Part shown: positions 29,958 through 45,280 of the stretch, piece after piece
How positions within the stretch are numbered: position 1 is the first letter of the stretch
Layout: each line of letters begins with the position of its first letter
From: Bacteriovoracaceae bacterium
GTDB taxonomy: Bacteria > Bdellovibrionota > Bacteriovoracia > Bacteriovoracales > Bacteriovoracaceae
Direction: 5' to 3'
DNA length: 59,661 bases
Assembly: GCA_029865945.1 (NCBI GenBank)
Contig: JARXAH010000059.1
Span: 1-59,661, forward strand
The notes under the pieces: generated by a model
Database searches by the model: none
Told to the model about the DNA's origin: nothing
The model's input: only the letters and a program-made list of their open reading frames with translations
Position numbers and translations under genes: made by a program

Positions 29958-30539
29958 ATGCCTATTTGGATCTACCTTGTTATTTGGCTCTCAAGAGTCA
30001 TTTTTGTTATTCTCTTTCTTTTATCCATTTACAGCTGGTCGATTATTCTCAAGCGAAAGAAATTTTTTAAAAATCACCTCACTCCGCTCCCATTAAGCGA
30101 TTTATCGATCGGTTCCATGGAAAATTTCAAGAAAAATAATCCTCAAAATTTTATGAGTCGCTATCTTGCCATCGCCCAAGAAAAAAAATCCCCTTCTCTT
30201 TTTGAAAAGAAAAAACAGCTGCTTTCTGCAGAAATAAGGCAACAGAGCGAACAAGGCCTTCCCACTCTTGCTTCTCTTGGTTCGACGGCGCCATTCATTG
30301 GACTCCTGGGAACGGTACTAAGCATCATTGTTTCTTTTGGGGAATTATCCAAAGGAAAAGGAGATATGAATCAAGTGATGTATTCCTTGGCAGAGGCCTT
30401 ATTGCTAACGGCAGTTGGTCTAGTGGTGGCGATACCGGCGGTCATTTCTTATAACTACTTCCAAAATAAAATAAAAACATTTTTCCAAAGTGCAGAATCT
30501 CTTCTCAATTATTATTTTATTAATGAATCTCAGGAATAA
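29958..30539 (+). CDS. exbB: ExbB/TolQ/MotA-family proton channel
   Basis: 193 residues with three membrane helices: about 5-28, 99-122 (LGSTAPFIGLLGTVLSIIVSF) and 140-160 (AEALLLTAVGLVVAIPAVISY). The GLLGTVLSII and ALLLTAVGLVVAIPAV motifs are those of the ExbB/TolQ proton-channel domain. With ExbD and TonB encoded just downstream it would use the proton gradient to drive outer-membrane uptake. It leads a five-gene operon. Confidence 0.92.
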   Translation: MPIWIYLVIWLSRVIFVILFLLSIYSWSIILKRKKFFKNHLTPLPLSDLSIGSMENFKKNNPQNFMSRYLAIAQEKKSPSLFEKKKQLLSAEIRQQSEQGLPTLASLGSTAPFIGLLGTVLSIIVSFGELSKGKGDMNQVMYSLAEALLLTAVGLVVAIPAVISYNYFQNKIKTFFQSAESLLNYYFINESQE

Positions 30540-30550
30540 AATTTAACCGT

Positions 30551-30970
30551 ATGAAAAATGAAACACAAAACTCACTGGAAGATCAATCTTTCTCAGACAT
30601 CAATATTACACCTTTTGTCGATGTGGTCTTGGTTCTCTTAGTCATCTTTATGGTCGCGGCCCCCGTAATGATCAATAATCATTTTTTGATCAATTTACCG
30701 ACTTCTAAAAATAGCGATGGTGCGACCAAGTCAACTTTGACTATTTATATTTATCAAAGTGGCCAATATTCACTTAACGGCAAGCTGATGACCGAGCAAG
30801 ATTTAGAAAATGAAATAAAATCAATAAGAAAAGATAACCCTTCCGTACAGGCCGTCATTGCGGCCGATAAAAAATCAGAACATGGTTATGTCATAAAAAT
30901 CATTGATCTACTCAAATCCAATCAAATAGAAAACTTTGCCTTTGAAATGGAAAAGAGTGTTCGTGAATAA
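30551..30970 (+). CDS. exbD: ExbD/TolR-family proton-channel subunit
   Basis: 139 residues. Single membrane helix 24-42 with the conserved proton-carrying Asp, D24, in INITPFVDVVLVLLVIFMVAAP, followed by a periplasmic domain ending in IIDLLKSNQIENFAFE, the family fold. It is 11 bases after exbB and probably overlaps or abuts tonB. Confidence 0.93.
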   Translation: MKNETQNSLEDQSFSDINITPFVDVVLVLLVIFMVAAPVMINNHFLINLPTSKNSDGATKSTLTIYIYQSGQYSLNGKLMTEQDLENEIKSIRKDNPSVQAVIAADKKSEHGYVIKIIDLLKSNQIENFAFEMEKSVRE

Positions 30971-30977
30971 TTTAGAG

Positions 30978-31661
30978 ATGATGAAAACTAAAGGGGAGCA
31001 AGATTTTTCTTTACCTATCTCCATCGGCATTCATAGCATCTTGATTCTCATTTTGTTTTTCTTTACCTGGCTTGATGGAAAAAATTTCCTCGCCTCTAAT
31101 TTAGAAAAAATAAATTTTGTCGTTATTGAAAAAGAAAAAACAAACCAAGAAGATCCCATTAATATCAACTTAAAAAAAATGGAATCCTCTGATGCGAATC
31201 AGACGGAAAAACAGAAATCCCAAAAAAAAATTTTTGGACTAAAAAAAAGCTCCTTAAATCAAGCGGATTCCAAAATCGCAGTAAAAACTGGGAACACGCT
31301 ACAAAAAGAATCCGATGAGATTAAAATGACTGATCAAGATTCCGAAAAATTAGATTCTGAACTCCCCACTCCTGCCAAAGAATTCTTAGTCACGGAGATG
31401 CCTCAATTGATAGCAGAATTTCGTGCTCCCTACCCAAAAGAGGCAAAAGACAAAGGCATCGAAGGAAATGTCATTTTAGAAATTTTAATTGATCAGACGG
31501 GATCCGTGAGAAGTGCCAAACTTATCAGTGGGCCAGGGTTTGGATTAAATGAAGTAGCGCTAGAGAGCATTAAAAAATTTAAATTTCGTCCCGCTAAAAT
31601 TGAAAATAATTTTGTTGCGGTTAAAATTCGCTACTCTATCAAATTTGTTCTTGAGAAATAA
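30978..31661 (+). CDS. tonB: TonB energy-transducing protein
   Basis: 227 residues from the ATG at 30978; the in-frame ATG at 30936 or GTG at 30957 would overlap exbD, so the start is uncertain. One N-terminal helix (about 11-33, SLPISIGIHSILILILFFFTWL), a charged low-complexity linker, then the TonB C-terminal domain: FRAPYPKEAKDKGIEGNVILEILIDQTGSVRSAKL...KFKFRPAKI. This domain contacts the TonB box of the receptor encoded next. Unlike many TonB proteins the linker lacks Pro-Glu/Pro-Lys repeats and is Lys/Asp-rich instead. Confidence 0.92.
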   Translation: MMKTKGEQDFSLPISIGIHSILILILFFFTWLDGKNFLASNLEKINFVVIEKEKTNQEDPININLKKMESSDANQTEKQKSQKKIFGLKKSSLNQADSKIAVKTGNTLQKESDEIKMTDQDSEKLDSELPTPAKEFLVTEMPQLIAEFRAPYPKEAKDKGIEGNVILEILIDQTGSVRSAKLISGPGFGLNEVALESIKKFKFRPAKIENNFVAVKIRYSIKFVLEK

Positions 31662-31663
31662 CT

Positions 31664-33901
31664 ATGAAAATATTTTTTGTTATATTCATTAATTTCGTAT
31701 GCATTATTTCTGCAAACGCAATCACACTTAAGGGAAAAGTGTTAGAGCGAGGAACGAAAAAACCTTTAGAGAACATTAATGTTTATATTTTGCCCCTGGA
31801 ATTATCGGCCACCACCAACAACCAAGGTGAATTTGAAATTTTAGATGTTCCAGAAGGAAATTTTAAATGGGTCGTTAATATTCCGGGATACATTCGATTT
31901 GAAGAACTAGATGACACCGACGACCCATCGTCTATTTTTTATATTGAACGATTTGAATACAAAATTTATGAAACGACCGTGACCTCAACTCAAAAAAAAC
32001 GTGATGATTCTACTCAAACTCTCACTCAAGCGGATTTCTTGATGGCCCCTGGTGCAGGACAAGATCCCATAAGGGCCGTGCAAAATTTAACCGGAGTTGC
32101 CCAAAATCAAAGCGCGCAAGTCGTGATTCAAGGTTCAAATCCCGATGATACCGGCTACCTCATTAATCAACATCCTGTGCCCTTGGTTTTTCATTTTGAT
32201 GGGCTATCTTCCGTCGTATTTCCCAATGCTGTTGAAAGTGTCGATTACTTATCGGCCGGCTACGGGCCGGAGTACGGACGCGCGATCGGAGGGCTAATTG
32301 GAATCAATACCAAGTCTCCGCAAAATGATCGTCAACACGGAATTGCTTACCTTGATATTTTTAATGCGGGCGTGCTCGCTGAAGGCCCCCTAACAGAAGA
32401 TAAAAAACAAACCTACCTTGTCTCTTTAAGAAGAAGTTACATCGGACAAGTACTATCTAAAGTGACAGAAGATAATGAAGATTTTAATTTTACCGTGGCA
32501 CCAACCTATACTGATCTGACTGCGATCTACGAAAATAAAATAGATGAAAAAAATATTTTTAAATTAGACCTCGTGGCCTCACAAGATGAATTAAAATTCC
32601 TTATCAATAAACCTATTAATGACGATCCTAAGTTGCGCGGAGAATTTTTTCGTCAAACCCAATTTTTTCGAATCATTCCCAAATACACTCGTAAAATAAA
32701 TAGTCACTCTGAAATGGATAACTCATTTGCCTTTGGGCCCGATAAAATATTGCTCAATCTCAACAATCAAAAGCTGGATATTAATTCTTGGAATTTTTCT
32801 ACGAGGAGCGAATGGCGAAACCGCTTTAATGAAAATTATAAAATTTACTTAGGGCTTGATTCCCTTTTTGATCGAAGGTCCGTTTTTGTGAATCTTTCTG
32901 ATGTGTACACCCAAGGAGGCGTTTCCAATCCTTACTCAACTGGAGAAATAGCTTCCACCGATATAAAATCTTCTTCCCAAAACTTAGGATTTTACTTAAG
33001 AAATGAAATAAAAATTTCCGAAACTTCTCCTTGGACTTTTTTTCCTGGCCTTCGCTTTGATTATTTTGATCGCATAAAAGAGGGTGAACTTTCACCCAGG
33101 GCCAATTTAAAATATCAAGTCAATGATTCTTTGTTCTTTCGTCTTGCGGCAGGATTGTATTATCAGCCTCCCTCGGGACGAGAAACAGATAAAAATTATG
33201 GAAATCCGGAACTCACCTCTCCCAGATCAAGTCATTATACGTTCGGATGGCAAAAAGATTTTAGAGGGGGAAGTAGCGATGGCGTGATTTGGAATAGCGG
33301 AATTTTTTACAAAAATCTGGATCGACTTGTCGTTTCATCTACGGCACTCACTAATCGTGATGGATCTCAAGTACAGGAGAATTATAACAACCAAGGGACG
33401 GGAACTATTTATGGGCTTGAGCAATCCGTAAAATGGAAAAAAAATGAATATCGCTTAACTTTGGCCTATACGTTACTTAAAAGTACAAGAGAAGAACCCA
33501 GTGTTCCCAAGTATCCCTCTGAATTTGACCAAACTCATAATCTCAATCTTATTGGCTCATATGAAAGAGGAAAGTGGATTTATTCGACGAGGCTTCGTTA
33601 TGTAACGGGAAATCCCTACACGCCAGTGGAAAGTAGTTACTATGATGCCGATAACAATGTGTACATTCCCTTGAGAGGAGAAATCTATTCCGAAAGATTA
33701 GGAAATTTTGTTCAACTGGATTTTCGTATTGATCGTAAAATTGTGTACGATAAAATGTTACTTTATGCCTACCTTGATATCCAAAATTTATCCAATAACA
33801 AAAACGAGCAAGCGATCAATTATTCATATGATTATTCTCAATCACAACCTACAACTGGTTTACCTATCATTCCCATTTTCGGCGTCAGAGGAGAATTTTA
33901 A
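31664..33901 (+). CDS. TonB-dependent outer-membrane receptor with carboxypeptidase-regulatory domain
   Basis: 745 residues. Signal peptide (1-18), an N-terminal beta-sandwich (LKGKVLERGTKKPLENINVYI, CarboxypepD_reg-like) at about 20-100, a TonB-box-like ETTVTS near 105, a plug domain with VVIQGSNPDDTGYLIN and SVDYLSAGYGPEYGRAIGG, and a long barrel ending in F (IIPIFGVRGEF), the usual C-terminal sign of outer-membrane beta-barrels. It would be energised by the ExbB-ExbD-TonB set before it. The substrate is unknown; nothing points to iron or vitamin B12. Confidence 0.9.
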   Translation: MKIFFVIFINFVCIISANAITLKGKVLERGTKKPLENINVYILPLELSATTNNQGEFEILDVPEGNFKWVVNIPGYIRFEELDDTDDPSSIFYIERFEYKIYETTVTSTQKKRDDSTQTLTQADFLMAPGAGQDPIRAVQNLTGVAQNQSAQVVIQGSNPDDTGYLINQHPVPLVFHFDGLSSVVFPNAVESVDYLSAGYGPEYGRAIGGLIGINTKSPQNDRQHGIAYLDIFNAGVLAEGPLTEDKKQTYLVSLRRSYIGQVLSKVTEDNEDFNFTVAPTYTDLTAIYENKIDEKNIFKLDLVASQDELKFLINKPINDDPKLRGEFFRQTQFFRIIPKYTRKINSHSEMDNSFAFGPDKILLNLNNQKLDINSWNFSTRSEWRNRFNENYKIYLGLDSLFDRRSVFVNLSDVYTQGGVSNPYSTGEIASTDIKSSSQNLGFYLRNEIKISETSPWTFFPGLRFDYFDRIKEGELSPRANLKYQVNDSLFFRLAAGLYYQPPSGRETDKNYGNPELTSPRSSHYTFGWQKDFRGGSSDGVIWNSGIFYKNLDRLVVSSTALTNRDGSQVQENYNNQGTGTIYGLEQSVKWKKNEYRLTLAYTLLKSTREEPSVPKYPSEFDQTHNLNLIGSYERGKWIYSTRLRYVTGNPYTPVESSYYDADNNVYIPLRGEIYSERLGNFVQLDFRIDRKIVYDKMLLYAYLDIQNLSNNKNEQAINYSYDYSQSQPTTGLPIIPIFGVRGEF

Positions 33902-34746
33902 TGAAAATTAATTTTCTTATTTTATTATTTTTTATTTTTCTCAACAATTGTGGAAAAGACGATTTCAAAAAATCTTTTAGCATCGATGGTTTGCGGGTGC
34001 TTGCGATAACGGCGGGAAAATCTGGGGCCCTCACTCAAGCAGAATTTGATCCTGGTGATGTGGTGGTAGTGACTCCCTACGTAAGCGATACGGGCGGTTC
34101 TCAAATTGTAACCGCAAAAATTTCCTCTTGTACAGATTCGCTAGGAGTAGATTCGGGGGCAGAACCCACTTGTGAGAATGCCTCAGACCAAAATTCTAGT
34201 TATGCTGATTTGACTCTTGATACTTCCACGTTGGCCGCGAGAACGGGGGCGATGCCAAGTGTCAATGTTACGATCCCCTCCACTATTTATTCGGGCCGAA
34301 CTTCTGTTGATCAATTTAATGGAATCAACTATCTGGTGACGATGGAATTTTCAACTCCAGATGGCCAAAAAATAAAATCCTTTAAACGGCTTAGGGCAAC
34401 GACAAGGTCAACAAAAAATCAAAATCCCACCATAGGGTCTATTTTATTTGATGGTTCTTCATTTACTTCTTATCCTGAATCAGGAAATTTTTCTCTCGAT
34501 AGTTACTCGCAAGAAGAAAGCTATACGTTTCAAGATAGAAACGGCAACTCTTCGACACTGACAGAAGAACTTTTTGTCTCTTGGTATGTAAGTGATGGTG
34601 AAATCAATTTTTCTTCAGTAGATCCAGAGGCGAACGTAAAATTTACCTCACCCCAAAGTTCAAGCAGAGAAAGTTCGCTCGTCGTCGTTGCGGTTATAAG
34701 AGATGCGAGAGGAGGAATGGCCATCGAAATTAAAAATGTTCCGTAA
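33901..34746 (+). CDS. Lipoprotein paired with the TonB receptor
   Basis: 281 residues. Lipobox LNNC (C17). The mature protein is beta-rich with Ig-like features (DPGDVVVVTPYVSD, LFVSWYVSDGEINFSSVDPEANVKFTSP), likely extracytoplasmic binding domains. The start codon overlaps the receptor stop (TAATG), so it is coupled to it and is probably a surface partner or substrate-binding accessory of that receptor. The plus-strand operon ends here. Confidence 0.72.
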   Translation: MKINFLILLFFIFLNNCGKDDFKKSFSIDGLRVLAITAGKSGALTQAEFDPGDVVVVTPYVSDTGGSQIVTAKISSCTDSLGVDSGAEPTCENASDQNSSYADLTLDTSTLAARTGAMPSVNVTIPSTIYSGRTSVDQFNGINYLVTMEFSTPDGQKIKSFKRLRATTRSTKNQNPTIGSILFDGSSFTSYPESGNFSLDSYSQEESYTFQDRNGNSSTLTEELFVSWYVSDGEINFSSVDPEANVKFTSPQSSSRESSLVVVAVIRDARGGMAIEIKNVP

Positions 34747-36441: not shown

Positions 36442-37062
36442 CTAAGCCTCTAAAAAAGTGACAACTCCACTACTCACATCATAGACGCCGCCCACAATCT
36501 TGATTTTTTTTGTATATTCCATTTCTTCAAGAATTGAGGACCTGGCCTTAAGATCTTGAACGCCTTGAATCACATTTTCTGTCGTCACGGAAGTTACTAA
36601 ATCACTTGGTGAAATAAATTTATCGGTCGCCTTAATTTTAGGAATGCATCTTTGAATTTTTTTTGTAATAAAATGCAAATGTCCTAAATCTACATCATCG
36701 ACTGCACCTTTGATCGCGCCACAAGAAGTGTGCCCAAGGACGACGACAACTTTTGCGCCGACGACTTTACATCCAAACTCTGTACTAGCAAGAATGTCTT
36801 CATTGATAACATTTCCTGCGATACGAATACTGAAAACATCGCCCAACCCTTGATCAAATATTAATTCAGCTGAAGTTCTTGAGTCCATGCAACTAATAAT
36901 CACAGCAAAAGGATGTTGGCTTTCGCTTGTATCATTTACTTGCTGCAATAAATTTCGATTAAACTTTAGATTGTTTAAGAATCTCTGATTTCCTTCCTTT
37001 AGTAGGTCGATTGCTCGCTGCGGAGTGATGTCTTGTTGCAATTCTTTGGTTAATGTTCTCAT
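36442..37062 (-). CDS. can: Beta-carbonic anhydrase
   Basis: 206 residues. Zinc ligands in the beta-class order: C58 with D60 and R62 (CMDSR), H111 and C114 (HTSCG). The enzyme interconverts CO2 and bicarbonate. No signal peptide, so cytoplasmic. The ATG follows AAGGAG. It is the last gene of a run: LysR regulator, HPF-like protein, DUF1275 membrane protein, carbonic anhydrase. Confidence 0.93.
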   Translation of the reverse strand: MRTLTKELQQDITPQRAIDLLKEGNQRFLNNLKFNRNLLQQVNDTSESQHPFAVIISCMDSRTSAELIFDQGLGDVFSIRIAGNVINEDILASTEFGCKVVGAKVVVVLGHTSCGAIKGAVDDVDLGHLHFITKKIQRCIPKIKATDKFISPSDLVTSVTTENVIQGVQDLKARSSILEEMEYTKKIKIVGGVYDVSSGVVTFLEA

Positions 37063-37113
37063 TTTGGATCTCCTTGTATAAATATTTAGAAATAAATATT
37101 AAAAAATAAATGC

Positions 37114-37917
37114 CTAAACGCTCATGGGTTTTGTTTGACCTGCTAGCTGCACCCTGGGATTTGAATGATCATTTAATTGGTTCGTTATTAACCTCCTGTG
37201 AAAAAAGGAAATCGAAAAGAGCGCAAGCGAGATAAAAAATATGAGATAAAATATTTTATATCCTATGGATGGTATTAGAATGGCAGCAAGAAAAGCACCT
37301 AAAGAAAAACTCATCAAAGTAATTAATCTTACGTAATTTACTTTTGCACTTTCAGGATACCTAGATTTTAGTGTACTGCCCTTTTCATAAAACATTTTCG
37401 GCAAATGTAATCCTATATCAGTCGATAGACCAGTCAAATGAGTCGTCCGTATTTTTCCATGACTTGCCCAAGTTGTGAGTCCATTTTTAAGTCCACAAAT
37501 AAGACACAATAGGCCAATGGCAATAATTGTATTCTCGTTGTTACTTGCGATTGATTTTACGTCTAAAATTTCAAGATAAAAAAATAAAGAGACAATCCCC
37601 AATAAAAAAGTAATTAAAAATTGAACCAATGGATAATTGGGTATCTTCTTTTTATCATAATTTTTATCTAGTATGAGTGAGGTAATAACACCACCCGAAA
37701 TAAAAGAAATCGGAATAACAAGTAATTCTAAACCGAAACTGTAATCACTATGCCCAAGAGCAATTCCAACTTGAGTACCGAATCCAGTTACATGAGACAC
37801 ATAACTACCTGCGATTAAAAATCCTGCGGTATTGATCATACCTGCTTTAAAAGAGAGAACGGACCACAGCATAGAATAACGTTTTTTATATAAATCACTA
37901 ACTTCGACATGAAGCAT
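37114..37917 (-). CDS. DUF1275 / YoaK-family membrane protein
   Basis: 267 residues with about six membrane helices (22-44, 62-84, 95-112, 128-148, 192-215, 218-240). The family signature AGMINTAGFLIAGSYVSHVTGF and KNGLTTWASHGKIRTTHLTGLSTDIG identify DUF1275 (YoaK), a transporter-like family whose substrate is unknown. It is 17 bases from the HPF-like gene and 51 from the carbonic anhydrase gene. Confidence 0.82.
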   Translation of the reverse strand: MLHVEVSDLYKKRYSMLWSVLSFKAGMINTAGFLIAGSYVSHVTGFGTQVGIALGHSDYSFGLELLVIPISFISGGVITSLILDKNYDKKKIPNYPLVQFLITFLLGIVSLFFYLEILDVKSIASNNENTIIAIGLLCLICGLKNGLTTWASHGKIRTTHLTGLSTDIGLHLPKMFYEKGSTLKSRYPESAKVNYVRLITLMSFSLGAFLAAILIPSIGYKIFYLIFFISLALFSISFFHRRLITNQLNDHSNPRVQLAGQTKPMSV

Positions 37918-37934
37918 ACTTCTTCCTTTGAAAA

Positions 37935-38321
37935 TTATTTATTAAGTGAGGTCGATCGATAAATTTTTAAATCTTTTGAAAAATCTATCATTTTTGTTTT
38001 TGTGTTCACTTTTGTTTTCGCTTTCGCTTCAACTTTTTCAAGAAAATTCAACACCTCTTCACAAAGTTCATTTAAGGCCGAGTAAAAATTGCAATGTTCC
38101 TTAGAAATCAATACGCCCTCATATAATCCTGACATAACTTGCAATTTTAAAATAAATAAATCAGAAGATGGGAGAGCAGAGGAATTTTCTAAAAATAAAC
38201 TAATATCAATTTGACACTTACTTAATTTTGGAAATCTAGAAGTCACTTCCAAGATTTTTTCTTCAACAGCATCGACAACTAACTGTGACTTTTCAATTTT
38301 TTGAAATTTTATCTTCAACAT
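37935..38321 (-). CDS. HPF/RaiA-like ribosome-hibernation protein
   Basis: 128 residues. The pattern FQKIEKSQLVVDAVEEKILEVTSRFPKLSKCQIDISLFLENSS...LFILKLQVMSGLYEGVLISKE...LYSALNELCEEVLNFLEK follows the HPF/RaiA fold (beta-alpha-beta-beta-beta-alpha), with the helix after N/FYSAL typical of that fold. Members bind the small ribosomal subunit and idle ribosomes under stress. Here it is between a regulator and a DUF1275 protein instead of beside rpoN, where HPF often occurs, and it lacks the C-terminal dimerisation domain of long HPF. Confidence 0.72.
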   Translation of the reverse strand: MLKIKFQKIEKSQLVVDAVEEKILEVTSRFPKLSKCQIDISLFLENSSALPSSDLFILKLQVMSGLYEGVLISKEHCNFYSALNELCEEVLNFLEKVEAKAKTKVNTKTKMIDFSKDLKIYRSTSLNK

Positions 38322-38400
38322 AAACCAACCCTAGGATAGTTATAAGTCACAAACATAAATCGTCAAAATAGATATTTACAATTAAATTTATTGTTTTTTT

Positions 38401-39291
38401 CTATATTGAAAAGTTACTCATTAATTTTGCTGCTATCTGATTTACAATTTTTCGATTGGCAGCGACCAGAAACAACTCCTCGTGAACTCCTTGCAATTTG
38501 CCAATTTCTAATAACTCCCCACGCAATACTTGATTCGTTACGGTATGAGGTGCTGCTGCAATCAGTCCCATTTTATTTACGGCCATTAATTTTTTAACGG
38601 AAACGTCTTGGCTCTCAATGATAACATTCAACTCAATTTTTTGAAGTTTTGCCCAATGTTCTAAATCTTGTCGCAACCGACTATCATAGGTCGGAAATAT
38701 CATGGGTTGGCCGGAAATGGATTTCGGAAAATCAGCTCTAAGAGATTTAAATTTTGGAGATGCATAAAATGCAATATTTTTTTTTGAAATAGATTTAGAG
38801 TTTAATCCTCTCGCATCAAGGCCAGTCCCTAAGAAATTGGTAATGATAATATCCATACGATGGGCAACTAGCTCTCTCGTTAACTCGTCAAGTCGGCCTT
38901 CAGAAAGCGTAATCTGGCAGGGAGATATTTTTATTGCAAATTTCACCATCTCTAAAACTAATTGTTTAGGAATACTATCCAGTGCACCAATATGCAAAGT
39001 AGGTTTAAGCGGCTTTAAGCGGTCGTGAATGACCTCATACATTTCAGAGCCCATGCGAAAAATTACTTTTGCATAATCAAAGGCGACTTTTCCTTGCTCT
39101 GTCAAAACTAATTTCTTATGCACTCTATCGAATAAGAGAACACCTAGATTATCTTCAAATTGACTTAATTGGGACGAAAGTGTCGGTTGGCCTAATCTTA
39201 ATTTTTCAGCGGCCTTAGAAACTGAACCTTCTTCTGCAATAGTTTTAAAATAAAACAAATGATGATAATTAATCCAAGTATTGTTAGTCAT
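38401..39291 (-). CDS. LysR-family regulator, NhaR-like
   Basis: 296 residues from the ATG at 39291 (GAGG nine bases upstream). The N-terminal winged HTH, INYHHLFYFKTIAEEGSVSKAAEKLRLGQPTLSSQLSQFE, closely follows NhaR, which in enteric bacteria senses Na+ and activates nhaA. The effector domain follows (LHIGALDSIPKQLVLEMV, DIIITNF, LIAAAPHTV). No nhaA is in this window. It lies 79 bases upstream of the HPF-like gene, same strand, so its likely targets are HPF-like, DUF1275 and carbonic anhydrase genes. Confidence 0.85.
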   Translation of the reverse strand: MTNNTWINYHHLFYFKTIAEEGSVSKAAEKLRLGQPTLSSQLSQFEDNLGVLLFDRVHKKLVLTEQGKVAFDYAKVIFRMGSEMYEVIHDRLKPLKPTLHIGALDSIPKQLVLEMVKFAIKISPCQITLSEGRLDELTRELVAHRMDIIITNFLGTGLDARGLNSKSISKKNIAFYASPKFKSLRADFPKSISGQPMIFPTYDSRLRQDLEHWAKLQKIELNVIIESQDVSVKKLMAVNKMGLIAAAPHTVTNQVLRGELLEIGKLQGVHEELFLVAANRKIVNQIAAKLMSNFSI

Positions 39292-39380
39292 TTGAGCAAT
39301 CCTCACTACTTCGATCAATATCTTAACTCATAAATACCAAAAAGATCCTCCCTCAATATAATTAATTTTCATGTCTCATA

Positions 39381-39449
39381 AAAAAGGCCGCAAACAAATC
39401 CCAAAAATGCCAACAAGAAACCATTTCTGTTTACCTTGCCTGCGGCCTT
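39381..39449 (-). terminator. Strong intrinsic terminator of the export/barrel operon
   Basis: On the minus strand AAGGCCGCA (39441-39449) pairs with TGCGGCCTT (39384-39392), the stem ending directly in a T-run (TTTTTT). A secondary small stem lies in the loop (AACAGAAA with TTTCTTGTT). The GC-rich foot and following U-run are classic. It lies 14 bases after the barrel gene stop. Confidence 0.85.
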
Positions 39450-39462
39450 GATTAAGCATCGA

Positions 39463-40560
39463 CTATTTAAAGCTGCCTGATATCCACATTCCAAAAGAAA
39501 CCGTGTCTTCAAAAGCTGCCGTCAAGCCAGTTTTTGCACTTTCTCTTTGTTTCGTAATGGGAAAAAATTGAATAAAAGGATAGATCGTTAAGTCTTTAGT
39601 ATGAGAATACTTAGGGCCAAACATGAAAGGAATACCGTTAAGCACCCAGTCACTTGTTTTGGAATTTGAAATTAAAGTCATACTAGTTGGATCCCAATCA
39701 GAACCCACTTGCTTAATATACTCAATCGTCGTTGTACCAGACCAAGATAATTTATCTGAAACAATATAATTAACAGAAGGACTAAGTGCGATCACGAGGT
39801 GAGGCTTATTTTGTCCTGTAAAACCGGCCGCAACACCCTCTTTTTCTAGCTTATTATCATCTTTGTAGTGAAAATACCTTGGTGTTAAAAGAATGCTATA
39901 TGACCAATCACTGGCTGGATTGTGATAATTATAATTCGCAAACATTCCCGGATTAAAGAGAACTGTTCGCTCCCTTGCAGTATAACCCGTAAAAGGCTCA
40001 GGCAATGAATAAGGAAAATCTGAATTGACGGCCCCAGTTAAATTCCAAAATTCTCCTTTCAAAAGTTTTCCGGAAACACCAATTCTTGGCGACTCCCAAA
40101 TAAACCACTTAAAATTATTCGTGTCTGTCCCATTGTTAAAGACAACGCGAGTTCTGGTTTGTAAGTCAATATTGTATTTCTCTGTAATTTTATATCGAAA
40201 GCTAATGGCATTAAATGAATTTAGGCCGGTAAAATCTGGGCGCCCGATTTCGTTTGGTGGAACGCTATGAGTTTCTTGGGTAATTCCTGGGCCATTAAAA
40301 AATAAAAAATAGGTAATACCCAGTTTATCGAAGTCAGAAGTTTCCACTTTTTCTGGTGTCAAAGTGGACTCTGGTGTCACTTGGATTTTTTCATTTTCTA
40401 TCGGATCAACTTGTATGAGATTCCTCGCATAACTATCGACTGCACCAAGCTCATCTTTCTTGTCTCTCTCATTTTGTGCATAAACAAAATTGGAAAACAA
40501 AAAACAAATCAAGAAAATTTCCAACGATTTCTTACTGCCTAAATTATACAATGACTTCAT
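39463..40560 (-). CDS. Outer-membrane beta-barrel protein
   Basis: 365 residues from the ATG at 40560, which has AGGAGG five bases upstream and yields a signal peptide (SKKSLEIFLICFLFSNFVYAQ). Longer in-frame starts up to 40743 would run into the TolC gene. The mature part has alternating beta strands (YNIDLQTRTRVVFNN, WSYSILLTPRYFHY) and ends in an aromatic-containing strand with F (FGMWISGSFK). Probably an outer-membrane porin or channel. It is the last gene before the terminator and downstream of TolC by 128 bases, so it may share the operon. Confidence 0.72.
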   Translation of the reverse strand: MKSLYNLGSKKSLEIFLICFLFSNFVYAQNERDKKDELGAVDSYARNLIQVDPIENEKIQVTPESTLTPEKVETSDFDKLGITYFLFFNGPGITQETHSVPPNEIGRPDFTGLNSFNAISFRYKITEKYNIDLQTRTRVVFNNGTDTNNFKWFIWESPRIGVSGKLLKGEFWNLTGAVNSDFPYSLPEPFTGYTARERTVLFNPGMFANYNYHNPASDWSYSILLTPRYFHYKDDNKLEKEGVAAGFTGQNKPHLVIALSPSVNYIVSDKLSWSGTTTIEYIKQVGSDWDPTSMTLISNSKTSDWVLNGIPFMFGPKYSHTKDLTIYPFIQFFPITKQRESAKTGLTAAFEDTVSFGMWISGSFK

Positions 40561-40688: not shown

Positions 40689-42116
40689 TTAGAACGAGGG
40701 AAGTTCTCCAGACAAAGAATAAAGTTCGACTTTCGTTCTCCAAAAATCAACCAGTAATTCTTGATATTTGATATGGGTTTCAGCTGTCGTTTGCTCTCTA
40801 ATATTAACAATAACAAGACTTGAATCTCCAAATTTAAATCTTTTTTGCTCACCACTTTCTAATTTTTCGGCCAACGACAATTCTTTTTTCGTAATAGATA
40901 GCCTTTCCTTAAGCGCCTCTAAATTCATAATATTAATTTTTATATCATTTTGAATTTTTTGCTCTAGAAACTGTTTTCTCAACTGAGCATTTTGAAATTC
41001 AGAGTTTGCTTGTAAATACTTTCCTCTCGCCTCTCGCAACTGAAGGGGCATCTCGAAATTGATCATCACTCTATAATCTTCTTCGTTTTCAATAGTTATT
41101 GCTCCTTGATTTTGGGCAACTTCCCCTTTAAGTTTCAACTTTGGTAAGTATTCTTGTCTGAAGAGATCGATGCTCACTTTTTTCTCTGCAATGATTTCGT
41201 CCATGGCGATCAAATCTTTTCTTTGTTCTAAAGCTTTTTGTTTCCAACTTTCATAATCAGGAATAATAAAATTTAGGTCATCAAGTACGTTTGATGAGGT
41301 ATAAGCTTCAGCAGCTCCAGGTAGCAACTCAAAGGCATTGAGAAATAAAACCAAGGCCTGCCAACTTTGGTGATACTTAAGTTGCAAATCAATGAAGGAT
41401 GACTTCCTATTCAAAATGGTTCGATCATTGTCTTCTTTATCAAACAAAGCAATGGATCCGGCCTGAGAACTAATGGATAACCACTCGCCTCTTTTCTCTG
41501 CAATACTTAAAAGTTGTTTTGCTACTTGCAGCCTCTTCTCTGCGATTGACCAATTAAAATATAAACTCAAACCTTTTAGTGCAATATCAATATATTTTTG
41601 TTCATAATCATTTTTCTTGGCCTCAAAAAGAAGTTCATTTTGCCAAAAATTCGCTCTTCGTCTATCGATTAAAAGCCCTTGAAGGAGAGGTATGCTTGCG
41701 CCAATTGTTATTTGTCCGTTGTCAGTGGTGCTTCCATAATCCCAATAACTAGGTATGGATCCATTTGTTTTTCGGTATCCTCCCCAAACCTCAACGCCTA
41801 AGTAGGGAGTGGGATAAGTAAGAGATGTGTTCAACTCACCATACTCTTTAGAAGAGTCTATGGATTTCCAACCTCCTTCTAAAAGAAAATCAAAAGCTCC
41901 TTTGGAACTTAATAATTTTCCTTCTTGAATAGAAATGGAATTCTTCTCCGTTTTGTTTTCGATATTATAAACATTAATAATTTCTAATATCTTTTTAGGG
42001 GAAATGACTACAGGGCCACTAATATTTGTTACTGGATTACTCGCCAATGAATTCAAGTTTAGAGTTGCAAGTAAAAGAACAACTAAAAATTTTAATATTT
42101 TCATTTTAACAATCAT
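40689..42116 (-). CDS. TolC-like outer-membrane efflux channel
   Basis: 475 residues. Signal peptide (about 5-24). The outer-membrane efflux fold is indicated by two repeats of strand-turn-long-helix: for example LSLYFNWSIAEKRLQVAKQLLSIAEKRGEWL and LRKQFLEQKIQNDIKINIMNLEALKERLSITKKEL, with LFRQEYLPKLKLKG at the repeat boundary. It would carry cargo through the outer membrane from the HlyD-like and ABC proteins encoded immediately upstream (9 and further bases). Confidence 0.82.
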   Translation of the reverse strand: MIVKMKILKFLVVLLLATLNLNSLASNPVTNISGPVVISPKKILEIINVYNIENKTEKNSISIQEGKLLSSKGAFDFLLEGGWKSIDSSKEYGELNTSLTYPTPYLGVEVWGGYRKTNGSIPSYWDYGSTTDNGQITIGASIPLLQGLLIDRRRANFWQNELLFEAKKNDYEQKYIDIALKGLSLYFNWSIAEKRLQVAKQLLSIAEKRGEWLSISSQAGSIALFDKEDNDRTILNRKSSFIDLQLKYHQSWQALVLFLNAFELLPGAAEAYTSSNVLDDLNFIIPDYESWKQKALEQRKDLIAMDEIIAEKKVSIDLFRQEYLPKLKLKGEVAQNQGAITIENEEDYRVMINFEMPLQLREARGKYLQANSEFQNAQLRKQFLEQKIQNDIKINIMNLEALKERLSITKKELSLAEKLESGEQKRFKFGDSSLVIVNIREQTTAETHIKYQELLVDFWRTKVELYSLSGELPSF

Positions 42117-42125
42117 TTTTAGTAG

Positions 42126-43163
42126 TTAATTATTTTTTGAATTTTTTTCAATTTTTTTATCTATTGTTTGATTAGATTTTAAATAATTATTGGGAAATCC
42201 ATTGAACTGTCTCCACAGTTCGAAACCAAGGGACACTTCATCCAATAAAACCCAGCCACGGGCCAACATTCCTTGCCTTAATATTTCTTCAGGTGGCCAA
42301 TGATTAATGTTATCTGGAATCACTATCGCTCTAAAATTACCGTGACCATCATCAAGTGCATCGATAATTTTAATAGTTCCTCGAAATGTTCCGTAAGAAT
42401 ATTCTGGCCACCCTGAAAAATAAAAAACTGGCCAGCCCTCAAATTGAATCCGTACTTCTCTCCCTGGATGAATAATGGGTAGGTCATTTCCATTTATCCA
42501 AAATTCCACGGCCATGTCTCTTGTTTGAGGTGAAATGATGGCAAGCGTTTCTCCACTTTTTACGTACTGCGATCCACCTGTTGAATTTTTTAAAACTCTA
42601 ACTAAAATTCCTTCGATGGGAGAAGTTATGGTAAGTTGTTCTTGCCTAGACAAGCGAACATTAAGCCTTTCAATTTCTCCTTCAATTTTTGACTGCTCTG
42701 CATGATTTTTTGAGTATTCAATATTTGCCCTTTCATAATTAAGCTGACTAGAAAGTCCTTGCTGAAAAAGTTTCCTCTGTCTTGAAACATTGAGTTCGGA
42801 GGTTTTCGCTGCTAATTTCGTTGATTCTAATTGACGCTCTAATGCTAACTTCTCTGACTGAATTCGCTCCATAATTTCGGGGTCATTGTCACTAATCTCT
42901 AAGAGAATTTGCCCTTTCGAAACTTTTTCTCCTTCACTCACTAACCATTTCTTGAGCCGACCCTCAATGGGTGAGTGCAACTCGAATCGCCTTTCTTCCG
43001 GATAATATGCAATCACTTTTCCCTTCATGAAAGATGTTTGGATCCAAGGTATAAACATCAAACCGAAAAACAGAAGAAAAATAAACCAAAAACTTCTCAT
43101 GATGGTTATTTTAAATCGAGAATCATCTGTGGCCCATTTTTCGATCACTTTATCTAGAAACAT
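42126..43163 (-). CDS. HlyD-family membrane fusion protein
   Basis: 345 residues from the ATG at 43163 (AAAGGA upstream); an in-frame start at 43214 would overlap the ABC gene by 41 bases. N-terminal helix about 22-41, then a biotinyl/lipoyl-type half-motif FELHSPIEGRLKKWLVSEGEKVSKGQILLEIS, a coiled-coil hairpin (about 88-165), the second lipoyl half LTITSPIEGILVRVL, and a beta-barrel domain. It links the inner-membrane ABC protein to TolC across the periplasm. Confidence 0.88.
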   Translation of the reverse strand: MFLDKVIEKWATDDSRFKITIMRSFWFIFLLFFGLMFIPWIQTSFMKGKVIAYYPEERRFELHSPIEGRLKKWLVSEGEKVSKGQILLEISDNDPEIMERIQSEKLALERQLESTKLAAKTSELNVSRQRKLFQQGLSSQLNYERANIEYSKNHAEQSKIEGEIERLNVRLSRQEQLTITSPIEGILVRVLKNSTGGSQYVKSGETLAIISPQTRDMAVEFWINGNDLPIIHPGREVRIQFEGWPVFYFSGWPEYSYGTFRGTIKIIDALDDGHGNFRAIVIPDNINHWPPEEILRQGMLARGWVLLDEVSLGFELWRQFNGFPNNYLKSNQTIDKKIEKNSKNN

Positions 43164-43173
43164 TGAAAATCCT

Positions 43174-44802
43174 TTACTCTCTCCAATCAATGATGGAATC
43201 AAATTTTTCAGCAATAGAGCTCGATGATGTTGTAATTAACATAGTACAATCTATTGAATTTAGAACCTTGATGATCTTCATGGATAATGCACTATCGAAG
43301 TGATCAAAAAGACCATCGATGATGAGTGTTTTGGGTTTTTGGTATAATGCCCTCGCCAACATAAGAATTCGACGATGAACTTCTGAGAAAGGATGGCCGG
43401 ACATTTTCATGTTGGTTTCCAAATTCATGGGAAAACTATCTATTATTTTCTTTAAATCTAGCTTCACTAAAATCTCATGTAGTTCGTTCATACGATCATT
43501 CTTTTCTCCAAAGACTAAATTTTCCAGGATAGTTCCAGGAAAAAAACATGAATCATTATTAACTAAACATACCTCATTATAAAATTTTTTATTTTCAAAG
43601 GAATAAATACTCTCACCATTTAATTTGATGGACCCGCTTTGCGGAAATTGATACTTCATCATCAGATTCACAACAGTAGTCTTGCCACGCCCTTCTGGCG
43701 CAAGCAATGCGACTTTTTTAAAAGGTGGAATATTCAAACTTAAATTATGAAAAAATTTAGCTTCCGTATCAATATAGTTGGTAACATCTAGTTTCTCGAA
43801 ACACCATTCATGGCTTTTTGCATCTAATACTTTATCACCACTTTTAATATTAACTTCAAACTGACTAGTTTGAAAAAGTTTCTTTGATGAAATGATTGAA
43901 TCATAGTAGTCATCAATTATATGAGGTAGTTTACTAAATCCAATAAGGATCGAGGTAATAATTAACTCAGCTGCAATGAGTTGCCCGAGAGAAAGATCTT
44001 CTCTAAATACTAAGTATCCACCAACGAGAAGAAGTGAAATGCTTGCAGTCGCTTGTATATATAAAAAATACTTTGTTTGTTCATAAAAAATTTTAAAAAA
44101 ATTATTTTGTTTCTCCATATAGCTAGAAACTTCGTTTTCTAATTTAGAATTTACAAAAAAAGTCTGATTCTCACCAAAAAAAAGATCTCTATTGAGGTTC
44201 ATTTGTTCCATCCACGCTATAACTTTGTACTTCTGTTCGCTTGCTTTAAAACCAGATTCGATAGCAATTTTACGAAACCTTTTGATAACAAGATACAAAA
44301 CGATAGAAAGTAGGAGTGCGTAAATAAAAAATGCGAGATGGTAAAAAGACACGATGAGGAGCCCAATAAAAACCTGCAAAAAGAATTGAAATGCATCAAC
44401 TATTGTTTTAACAAAAGATTTCTTTAAACTGAACACTTCAAAGAAATGATAGAACACTTCTTGGGCCTTATACCTTTCATTTTCAATGGATATGCATCTA
44501 GAAAAAAAATCTACATACTTTTTTACGGATTTTAAATAAATTCTGCGCTGCAAATTTTCGACTAATTTCACTTGAAATAATTTCAAAGCAGAAATAAAGA
44601 AAACAATGATAGCTAAGATAAAAAACAATACCATTGTTGGTCTTTCATAAATATGTATGGCAATTTGATTTATGATCACTTGGATGAGAACAGGTACCAT
44701 GAAGAGCAACAGATTAAATAAAACACTAACGAGTAAAATGGCGACGACACTTTCTCTTTCTGAAGATAATAGCTTGTGAAAATACTTTTCCTTAAATTCC
44801 AT
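43174..44802 (-). CDS. ABC exporter with degenerate nucleotide-binding domain
   Basis: 542 residues. Residues 1-310 hold about six membrane helices; 340-542 form the nucleotide-binding domain. The Walker A is APEGRGKTT (368-376), which keeps GKTT. Other key elements are lost: the Q-loop has N415-N416 where Gln is usual, the ABC signature LSGGQ is FSEVH (472-476), Walker B is TLIID496 followed by G497 instead of catalytic Glu, and the H-loop His is replaced in LITTSSSS (522-529). No C39 peptidase domain. It forms an operon with HlyD and TolC genes. A homodimer with such domains should hydrolyse ATP poorly unless another partner helps; related families with a changed signature exist, so this may be a family trait. 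Confidence 0.85.
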   Translation of the reverse strand: MEFKEKYFHKLLSSERESVVAILLVSVLFNLLLFMVPVLIQVIINQIAIHIYERPTMVLFFILAIIVFFISALKLFQVKLVENLQRRIYLKSVKKYVDFFSRCISIENERYKAQEVFYHFFEVFSLKKSFVKTIVDAFQFFLQVFIGLLIVSFYHLAFFIYALLLSIVLYLVIKRFRKIAIESGFKASEQKYKVIAWMEQMNLNRDLFFGENQTFFVNSKLENEVSSYMEKQNNFFKIFYEQTKYFLYIQATASISLLLVGGYLVFREDLSLGQLIAAELIITSILIGFSKLPHIIDDYYDSIISSKKLFQTSQFEVNIKSGDKVLDAKSHEWCFEKLDVTNYIDTEAKFFHNLSLNIPPFKKVALLAPEGRGKTTVVNLMMKYQFPQSGSIKLNGESIYSFENKKFYNEVCLVNNDSCFFPGTILENLVFGEKNDRMNELHEILVKLDLKKIIDSFPMNLETNMKMSGHPFSEVHRRILMLARALYQKPKTLIIDGLFDHFDSALSMKIIKVLNSIDCTMLITTSSSSIAEKFDSIIDWRE

Positions 44803-45004
44803 ATTTATTTGATCCAGTCCTTATTGCTTGTTATACTTAATTATAATGAAGGACTGTATCTCTAATCAAGTCCAATCATTCTCATGAAAGTGTAAATCCG
44901 TCTTTATCGCTTTAAGCAATGTATAATATTTTTTTTATCTACTTTAATAATTAATAATTTTAACGTAATTTGATATTAAGGTCTCAAACAAAGGAGCTTA
45001 CGAT
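44803..45004. promoter_or_regulatory. Divergent promoter region, export operon and 91-residue gene
   Basis: 202 bases, very AT-rich, between the ABC gene (minus) and the small secreted gene (plus). It must hold both promoters and would be a natural place for shared control. No clear operator palindrome is visible. The plus-strand gene has AAAGGAG before its ATG. Confidence 0.5.
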
Positions 45005-45280
45005 ATGAGTATTCTTAGAAAGGTGACGATACTTAGTGTTAAGTTTTTTGTCTTGCTTGCGCTAGAAAATGCTTTTGCGGAAAGTGTAAAGGTAGAAGAA
45101 ACAGCGTCAACTGATGAATCAAAAGAACTTATCAAACCAGTGGTTGCTCAAAAGGAAAAAAAAAATTTTTCGCATAGTAAATCAGGAAGCGAGTTCCACA
45201 GTAAATCAGGAAACGAGGCAATCAAAAATTCTCAAAAAAGAAGGGATAGAAGACATCACGAGTTTATGAATAGAAAATAA
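45005..45280 (+). CDS. Small secreted peptide divergent from the exporter
   Basis: 91 residues. Signal peptide 1-25 (ends AFAES). The mature part is 65 residues, highly charged, without cysteine. It contains a tandem repeat HSKSGSEF/HSKSGNE, also visible in DNA as AGTAAATCAGGAAGCGAG then AGTAAATCAGGAAACGAG. C-terminus is basic (KRRDRRHHEFMNRK). An excellent ribosome site. It might be a substrate or partner of the divergent ABC/HlyD/TolC system, but the presence of a Sec signal argues against direct type I export. Confidence 0.6.
   Translation: MSILRKVTILSVKFFVLLALENAFAESVKVEETASTDESKELIKPVVAQKEKKNFSHSKSGSEFHSKSGNEAIKNSQKRRDRRHHEFMNRK

Follow-up and report, generated by a model that had tools for sequence, protein, structure and literature searches.

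A type I secretion-like operon with a degenerate ATPase domain, from a permease family in which this domain ranges from near-intact to absent

Type I secretion, as in HlyB-HlyD-TolC, LssB and PrtD, depends on an ABC-exporter permease, an HlyD adaptor and a TolC channel encoded in one operon, and the nucleotide-binding domain (NBD) is competent. Heterodimeric exporters of the same fold (e.g., TM287/288, TAP and BmrCD) have degenerate nucleotide-binding motifs, but complementary losses in the two chains leave one competent site. Ion-coupled transport has reportedly been observed with MsbA. LmrA without its NBD has been reported as a secondary-active translocator (PMC6155054). SbmA is described as a proton-driven secondary transporter that derives from full-length ABC transporters by loss of the NBD and coupling helices and relies on a ladder of glutamates (PMC13316013). 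In the tripartite pumps of the RND and MFS families, the adaptor and TolC work with an inner-membrane pump driven by ions. A 2021 review gives ABC, RND and MFS as the inner-membrane families of tripartite pumps, and a term search of the accessible part of its text found no NBD-less case (PMC8277102). An HlyD/TolC exporter with an absent or degenerate NBD was likewise not found described in the literature, subscription papers lying outside the search.

The operon considered here represents a variant form of tripartite export akin to type I secretion. It lies on the minus strand of a 59,661-nucleotide stretch of DNA from a Bacteriovoracaceae bacterium (the window). The features of the operon and its near surroundings are as follows.

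43174 to 44802, minus strand: permease plus pseudo-NBD, 542 aa, with an ABC-exporter TMD at about residues 1-320 and a degenerate NBD at about 330-542 (open reading frame; ABC_tran, 6e-18; permease family profile; motif table; AlphaFold2 model)
43849 to 44790, minus strand: family-defining permease domain, residues 5-318 (alignment A2 of 31 members)
43174 to 43815, minus strand: degenerate NBD (motif losses relative to the family and to generic ABC exporters)
42126 to 43163, minus strand: HlyD-type periplasmic adaptor (Pfam Biotin_lipoyl_2, HlyD_3 and HlyD_D23; family HlyD profile, 470 bits)
40689 to 42116, minus strand: TolC-type outer-membrane channel, 475 aa (Pfam OEP, 2e-32, in two stretches)
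39463 to 40560, minus strand: likely outer-membrane barrel, about 365 aa (AGGAGG ahead of the likelier start, ATG 40560)
about 39380 to 39455, minus strand: terminator hairpin and U-run at the operon end (MFE -31.8 kcal/mol, z -5.3)
38401 to 39318, minus strand: LysR-type regulator (Pfam HTH_1 and LysR_substrate; probable start within the listed TTG reading frame)
36442 to 37062, minus strand: beta-carbonic anhydrase (Pro_CA, 7.7e-36, in G000:C4:36460-36906), an associated neighbour and not part of the exporter

The gene order is thus permease/NBD, HlyD, TolC, likely barrel and terminator. HlyD probably starts at ATG 43163, 10 nt past the ABC stop; from the listed TTG at 43214 it would overlap the ABC gene. 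The likely barrel has no Pfam match; it carries a YF.F..GP motif, and related proteins occur near L059, L069, L074, L075 and L076. With HlyD and TolC intact by profile and a strong hairpin and U-run at about 39449-39380, after the barrel gene, the operon is complete and cleanly terminated, as the original prediction had it. Promoter-like matches were no more numerous than expected by chance.

All five NBD motifs are altered in the 542-residue protein, the reading frame of which is free of internal stops. The LSGGQ position is occupied by F472-S473-E474-V475-H476 (from the translation, aligned to the family and to generic ABC exporters). Walker B is D496-G497 instead of Asp-Glu, the Q-loop has N415-N416, with N416 replacing the Gln of V-P-Q, and S526, following T525, occupies the H-loop His position. 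Translation and alignments confirmed every residue in which the original prediction had seen a change. They add one more, since the first Gly of Walker A, where G373-K374-T375 is retained, is Ala368. The domain nevertheless still has the ABC ATPase fold, as judged by the Pfam ABC_tran match, the AlphaFold2 model (mean pLDDT 73, with the NBD mostly at 75-89) and Foldseek, where the whole model matched ABC exporters including PCAT1, TAP and the HlyB/HlyD complex. Where type I secretion has a competent NBD, the catalytic motifs here appear, from the sequence, to be lost, and the window protein would not be expected to hydrolyze ATP. Because Lys374 and the signature Ser473 are kept, it could still bind nucleotide.

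Three of these changes, the Walker A Ala, the Asp-Gly Walker B and the loss of His, are common to the window protein and its nearest kin, L064 and L067, which form one clade with it. Since these relatives share the losses, the changes reflect neither chance nor error; looking at close relatives was the check originally proposed, and NBD degeneracy is not confined to the window. Selection was examined in pairs of other family members, the nearest relative of the window protein being too distant (39% identical in the permease). Where the NBDs of a pair were wholly degenerate, the NBD had a pS of 0.74-0.82, which is saturated, and a pN of 0.16-0.32, compared with a permease pN of 0.11-0.19. In each of the 12 pairs tested, conservation was lower in the NBD than in the permease. 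The degenerate NBDs of the family are therefore under purifying selection that is weaker than that on the permease. A sequencing error or pseudogene is ruled out by the losses common to kin and by this constraint within the family. The earlier view that the operon is used and not decayed holds up, given the shared changes, the purifying selection and the retention of the operon.

The permease defines the family. Relatives were searched for first, followed by 291 genomes of the phylum, which placed the family in 50 genomes; a permease-only profile then found it in 70 of 369 phylum genomes, mostly draft MAG-like assemblies. Members score E values of 1e-51 to 1e-138 with this profile, versus about 1e-5 for generic exporters, and the window protein belongs to a distinct permease family, separate from that of type I secretion and without a C39-like domain. 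Its best NCBIfam match is LssB, at 145 bits, below the cut-off of 693. Outside the phylum, relatives have been detected on plasmids of Sphingomonadales (Novosphingobium, Sphingobium, Sphingomonas and Croceicoccus) and of Bacteroidota (Persicobacter, Aureibacter and Riemerella). All NBDs examined in these plasmid relatives are degenerate, so that the label carried by family members in public plasmid records, 'ABC transporter ATP-binding protein', is misleading. A contig scan with a back-translated query matched only a generic Mucilaginibacter exporter pair.

The same partners accompany the permease in nearly all sampled operons. The order permease, HlyD, TolC is held at phylum loci with enough sequence and, on the plasmids, wherever the genes are annotated or translated. 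The L078 contig stops before HlyD and the L114 contig inside the permease gene, and L114 was left out of the counts. On the plasmids of Sphingopyxis 113P3 and Sphingobium TKS (L095, L099), the permease match is closely followed by an IS3-family transposase gene; with no HlyD or TolC annotated, these two copies look broken. In a non-systematic look, no RTX-like, small or other recognised substrate gene recurred beside family loci.

Within this conserved operon, the NBD ranges from near-intact through unrecognisable to absent, which makes the family a natural series. A motif census covered 43 members, 36 of them with an NBD, and LSGGQ was found in none of the 36. Nine relatives are near-intact and keep the Walker A Lys, the Walker B Asp-Glu and the His, so some members may still use ATP. 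At 23 loci the NBD is absent; HlyD is present there, and TolC too where the sequence allows. These include single proteins of 677-704 aa in four genomes (L054-L057), in which the permease continues directly into a complete HlyD, and permeases of about 290-330 aa with HlyD immediately next (L060, L061 and sixteen of L102-L121). L059, counted as NBD-less with caution because of frame breaks in its HlyD part, has a permease-HlyD fusion (L059:6181-8104, plus strand) in which that part is split over three frames, by assembly error or decay. The NBD-less proteins scanned have no Pfam ABC_tran match. A frame-shifted or separate NBD gene was considered at these loci and rejected, as the permease frame overlaps, nearly meets or is fused to the HlyD frame and leaves no room for one. 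The original prediction offered a poorly described degenerate family as one explanation; this is borne out and goes further, since within the family the ATPase is dispensable.

In a maximum-likelihood tree of the permease, the NBD-less members fall in four clades. The best tree implies four changes in NBD presence or absence, as does the 5-95% bootstrap range; only two are required when just the strongly supported branches are counted, and an earlier tree with fewer rows gave three. NBD absence would be a loss and not the ancestral state, given that the fold is that of an ABC exporter and that the remaining members carry homologous NBDs. Five genomes (G147, G196, G205, G264 and G288) each hold a full-length member with a degenerate NBD plus a separate NBD-less operon, which indicates that the two forms can coexist.

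ABC permeases contact their NBDs via two cytoplasmic coupling loops. Loop lengths were counted between fixed flanking residues in 38 NBD-bearing and 23 NBD-less members. Among the NBD-bearing members, loop 1 spans 50-53 residues in all 38 and loop 2 spans 56 in 37, irrespective of how far the NBD has decayed; the loops of the window protein are full-length. In 21 of the 23 NBD-less members, loop 1 is shortened to 38-49 and loop 2 to 39-53 residues. The association of loop shortening with NBD absence gave p < 1e-12 in a Fisher test with 40 NBD-bearing rows instead of 38, a value to be read with the rows being related and only four clades independent. As the loops are kept with an NBD and shortened without one, docking on the permease probably persists in degenerate NBDs, that of the window protein among them, and NBD-less members are probably served by no separate NBD.

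The family resembles SbmA/BacA (SLiPT) in having an ABC-type permease without a working NBD. The reduction of NBD and coupling loops seen there is matched by 21 of the 23 NBD-less relatives, whereas the window protein keeps a pseudo-NBD and full loops. The two do not belong to one sequence family, as no Pfam SbmA_BacA match was found for the window protein and ten-odd relatives. The family differs in working with HlyD and TolC, so that the operon presumably exports a substrate, in contrast to import by SbmA/BacA, and in the survival of pseudo-NBD intermediates. SbmA shows the end point only; the natural series makes the transition from an ATP-driven to an otherwise-driven transporter directly addressable. 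NBD loss is natural here, in contrast to LmrA-MD and MsbA, which are laboratory truncations of ATP-using transporters. The RND/MFS pumps offer a functional analogy only, their permease fold being unrelated.

Several charged or polar residues are conserved in the permease. Q41, E82, H155, K191 and E279 are present in all 23 NBD-less members, E187 in 22, and an acid at 297 in all 23; the set Q41, E82, H155, K191 and E279 is not conserved in nine generic exporters. The conserved glutamates E82, E187, E279 and E297 may be counterparts of the membrane glutamates of SbmA/BacA. Judged by helix positions in the model, TM6 carries E279 in its outer half, H155 sits at the periplasmic turn between TM3 and TM4, and the others are near the cytoplasmic boundary; only helix order was taken from a low-confidence AlphaFold2 model (pLDDT 55) of the permease-HlyD fusion. 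E279 is the best candidate for an in-membrane coupling residue, although its absence from the L063/L066 clade makes it weaker as a universal one.

Taken together, the operon probably encodes a type I secretion-like exporter that ATP hydrolysis no longer powers and that is most likely ion-coupled, with the window NBD as a structural pseudo-ATPase. The permease, HlyD adaptor and TolC channel would form an envelope-spanning machine in which the permease carries the function, the NBD having decayed to varying degrees and gone altogether in several lineages. In the window protein, the pseudo-NBD probably docks on the coupling loops and may aid dimerisation or gating. Transport would most likely be coupled to protons or sodium, as in SbmA/BacA. 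If ATP hydrolysis is indeed dispensed with, an ion gradient, by analogy with that system, has about an even chance of being the energy source. A non-ATP route would then be added to type I-like export.

Other readings have to be set against an ion-coupled pseudo-ATPase exporter. ATP binding without hydrolysis could gate the window protein, with Lys374 still binding nucleotide and closing the NBD dimer, which slow release or a different source of energy would reset. The kept G373-K374-T375 and the predicted completeness of the NBD fold fit this, and ATP at the degenerate site of known exporters has been proposed as a lasting glue (PMC7756269), but the signature glycines that clamp ATP across the dimer are gone. 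Because many relatives lack Walker A or the entire NBD, such gating cannot be the mechanism of the family. The earlier suggestion that ATP binding alone drives the exporter thus fails for the family and survives for the window protein, where it is unlikely. Slightly less probable still is a permease that serves as a scaffold or passive gate, an inner-membrane anchor for HlyD and TolC with a purpose other than transport. HlyD contacts are kept despite NBD loss, and fusions to HlyD occur in four genomes, as a scaffold would allow; the polar and charged residues of the permease helices and gates are, however, conserved more strongly than a scaffold needs.

Two further readings retain ATP hydrolysis. 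The permease could pair with a canonical ABC half-transporter encoded elsewhere, the heterodimer being the active ATPase. Heterodimeric exporters are well known to have degenerate sites, the nucleotide sites of ABC dimers are composite (PMC7756269), and seven other ABC loci in the window genome match the NBD. None of these is of the same permease family, and a search for a second half-transporter found neither a further ABC gene in the operon nor another family permease elsewhere in the genome. Nor is an ATPase gene recurrent beside family operons; L079 alone has an upstream ABC-2-like cassette, with permeases of its own. Because one chain has lost both the signature and Walker B/H, with no complementary split over two chains, pairing with a canonical partner could not restore a normal site, and both composite sites would miss a motif. 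The shortened loops of NBD-less relatives also count against a partner, and the pairing with a second ATPase that was once suggested is very improbable. The same must be said, with more force, of ATP hydrolysis by the window NBD through non-canonical residues. Its complete fold, the Walker A Lys and signature Ser, and nine relatives with near-intact NBDs would favor it, but an acidic base, His, Gln and signature glycines are all missing, the NBD is the less conserved domain in every pair compared, and relatives do without it.

The neighbouring genes give a first testable hint at function, in that carbonic anhydrase and DAB genes recur. In the 50 family genomes, 5 of 32 DabA genes, from three lineages, lie within 10 kb of the operon versus 0.2 expected, and 3 of 55 beta-carbonic anhydrase genes versus 0.4, the expectations assuming uniform placement in a 3-Mb genome with kinship only roughly corrected. 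On the Sphingobium plasmid pHAL16 (L096:1330-9037), a co-directional permease-HlyD-TolC set is preceded at 43 bp by a DabA gene (DUF2309) and followed by a LysR gene. At L070 and L072, a co-directional DabB-like gene and DabA begin about 85-100 bp after TolC. At L110:1702-5359 (minus strand), an NBD-less permease and HlyD are followed on the same strand by TolC, a SulP-family transporter and carbonic anhydrase. One LysR type occurs near 20 of 60 family loci, the window's included, by profile tally. The DAB complex is described as linking the membrane potential to the vectorial hydration of CO2 (PMC13144422). The inorganic-carbon genes are a lead to the function of the family and no proof of it. 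More speculatively, the family might be an ion-gradient-driven ABC-permease-HlyD-TolC class that lost its ATPase repeatedly via surviving intermediates and acts in inorganic-carbon or pH homeostasis alongside carbonic anhydrase, DabA/DabB, SulP and a shared LysR regulator, a proposal we hold only tentatively.

Past the operon terminator in the window, the same strand carries the LysR gene, an S30AE-like gene, a DUF1275-like membrane protein (identified by eye) and the beta-carbonic anhydrase (36442-39318, minus strand). Parts of this set recur near L059, L060, L069, L070, L072, L106 and L114. Just upstream of the operon, a small divergent reading frame (44969-45277, plus strand) has a signal-peptide-like start and a repeated HSKSG motif, and is possibly a secreted peptide. 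Further away, at 29958-34746 (plus strand), genes that resemble ExbB, TonB and a TonB-dependent receptor, as read from their translations only, are consecutive.
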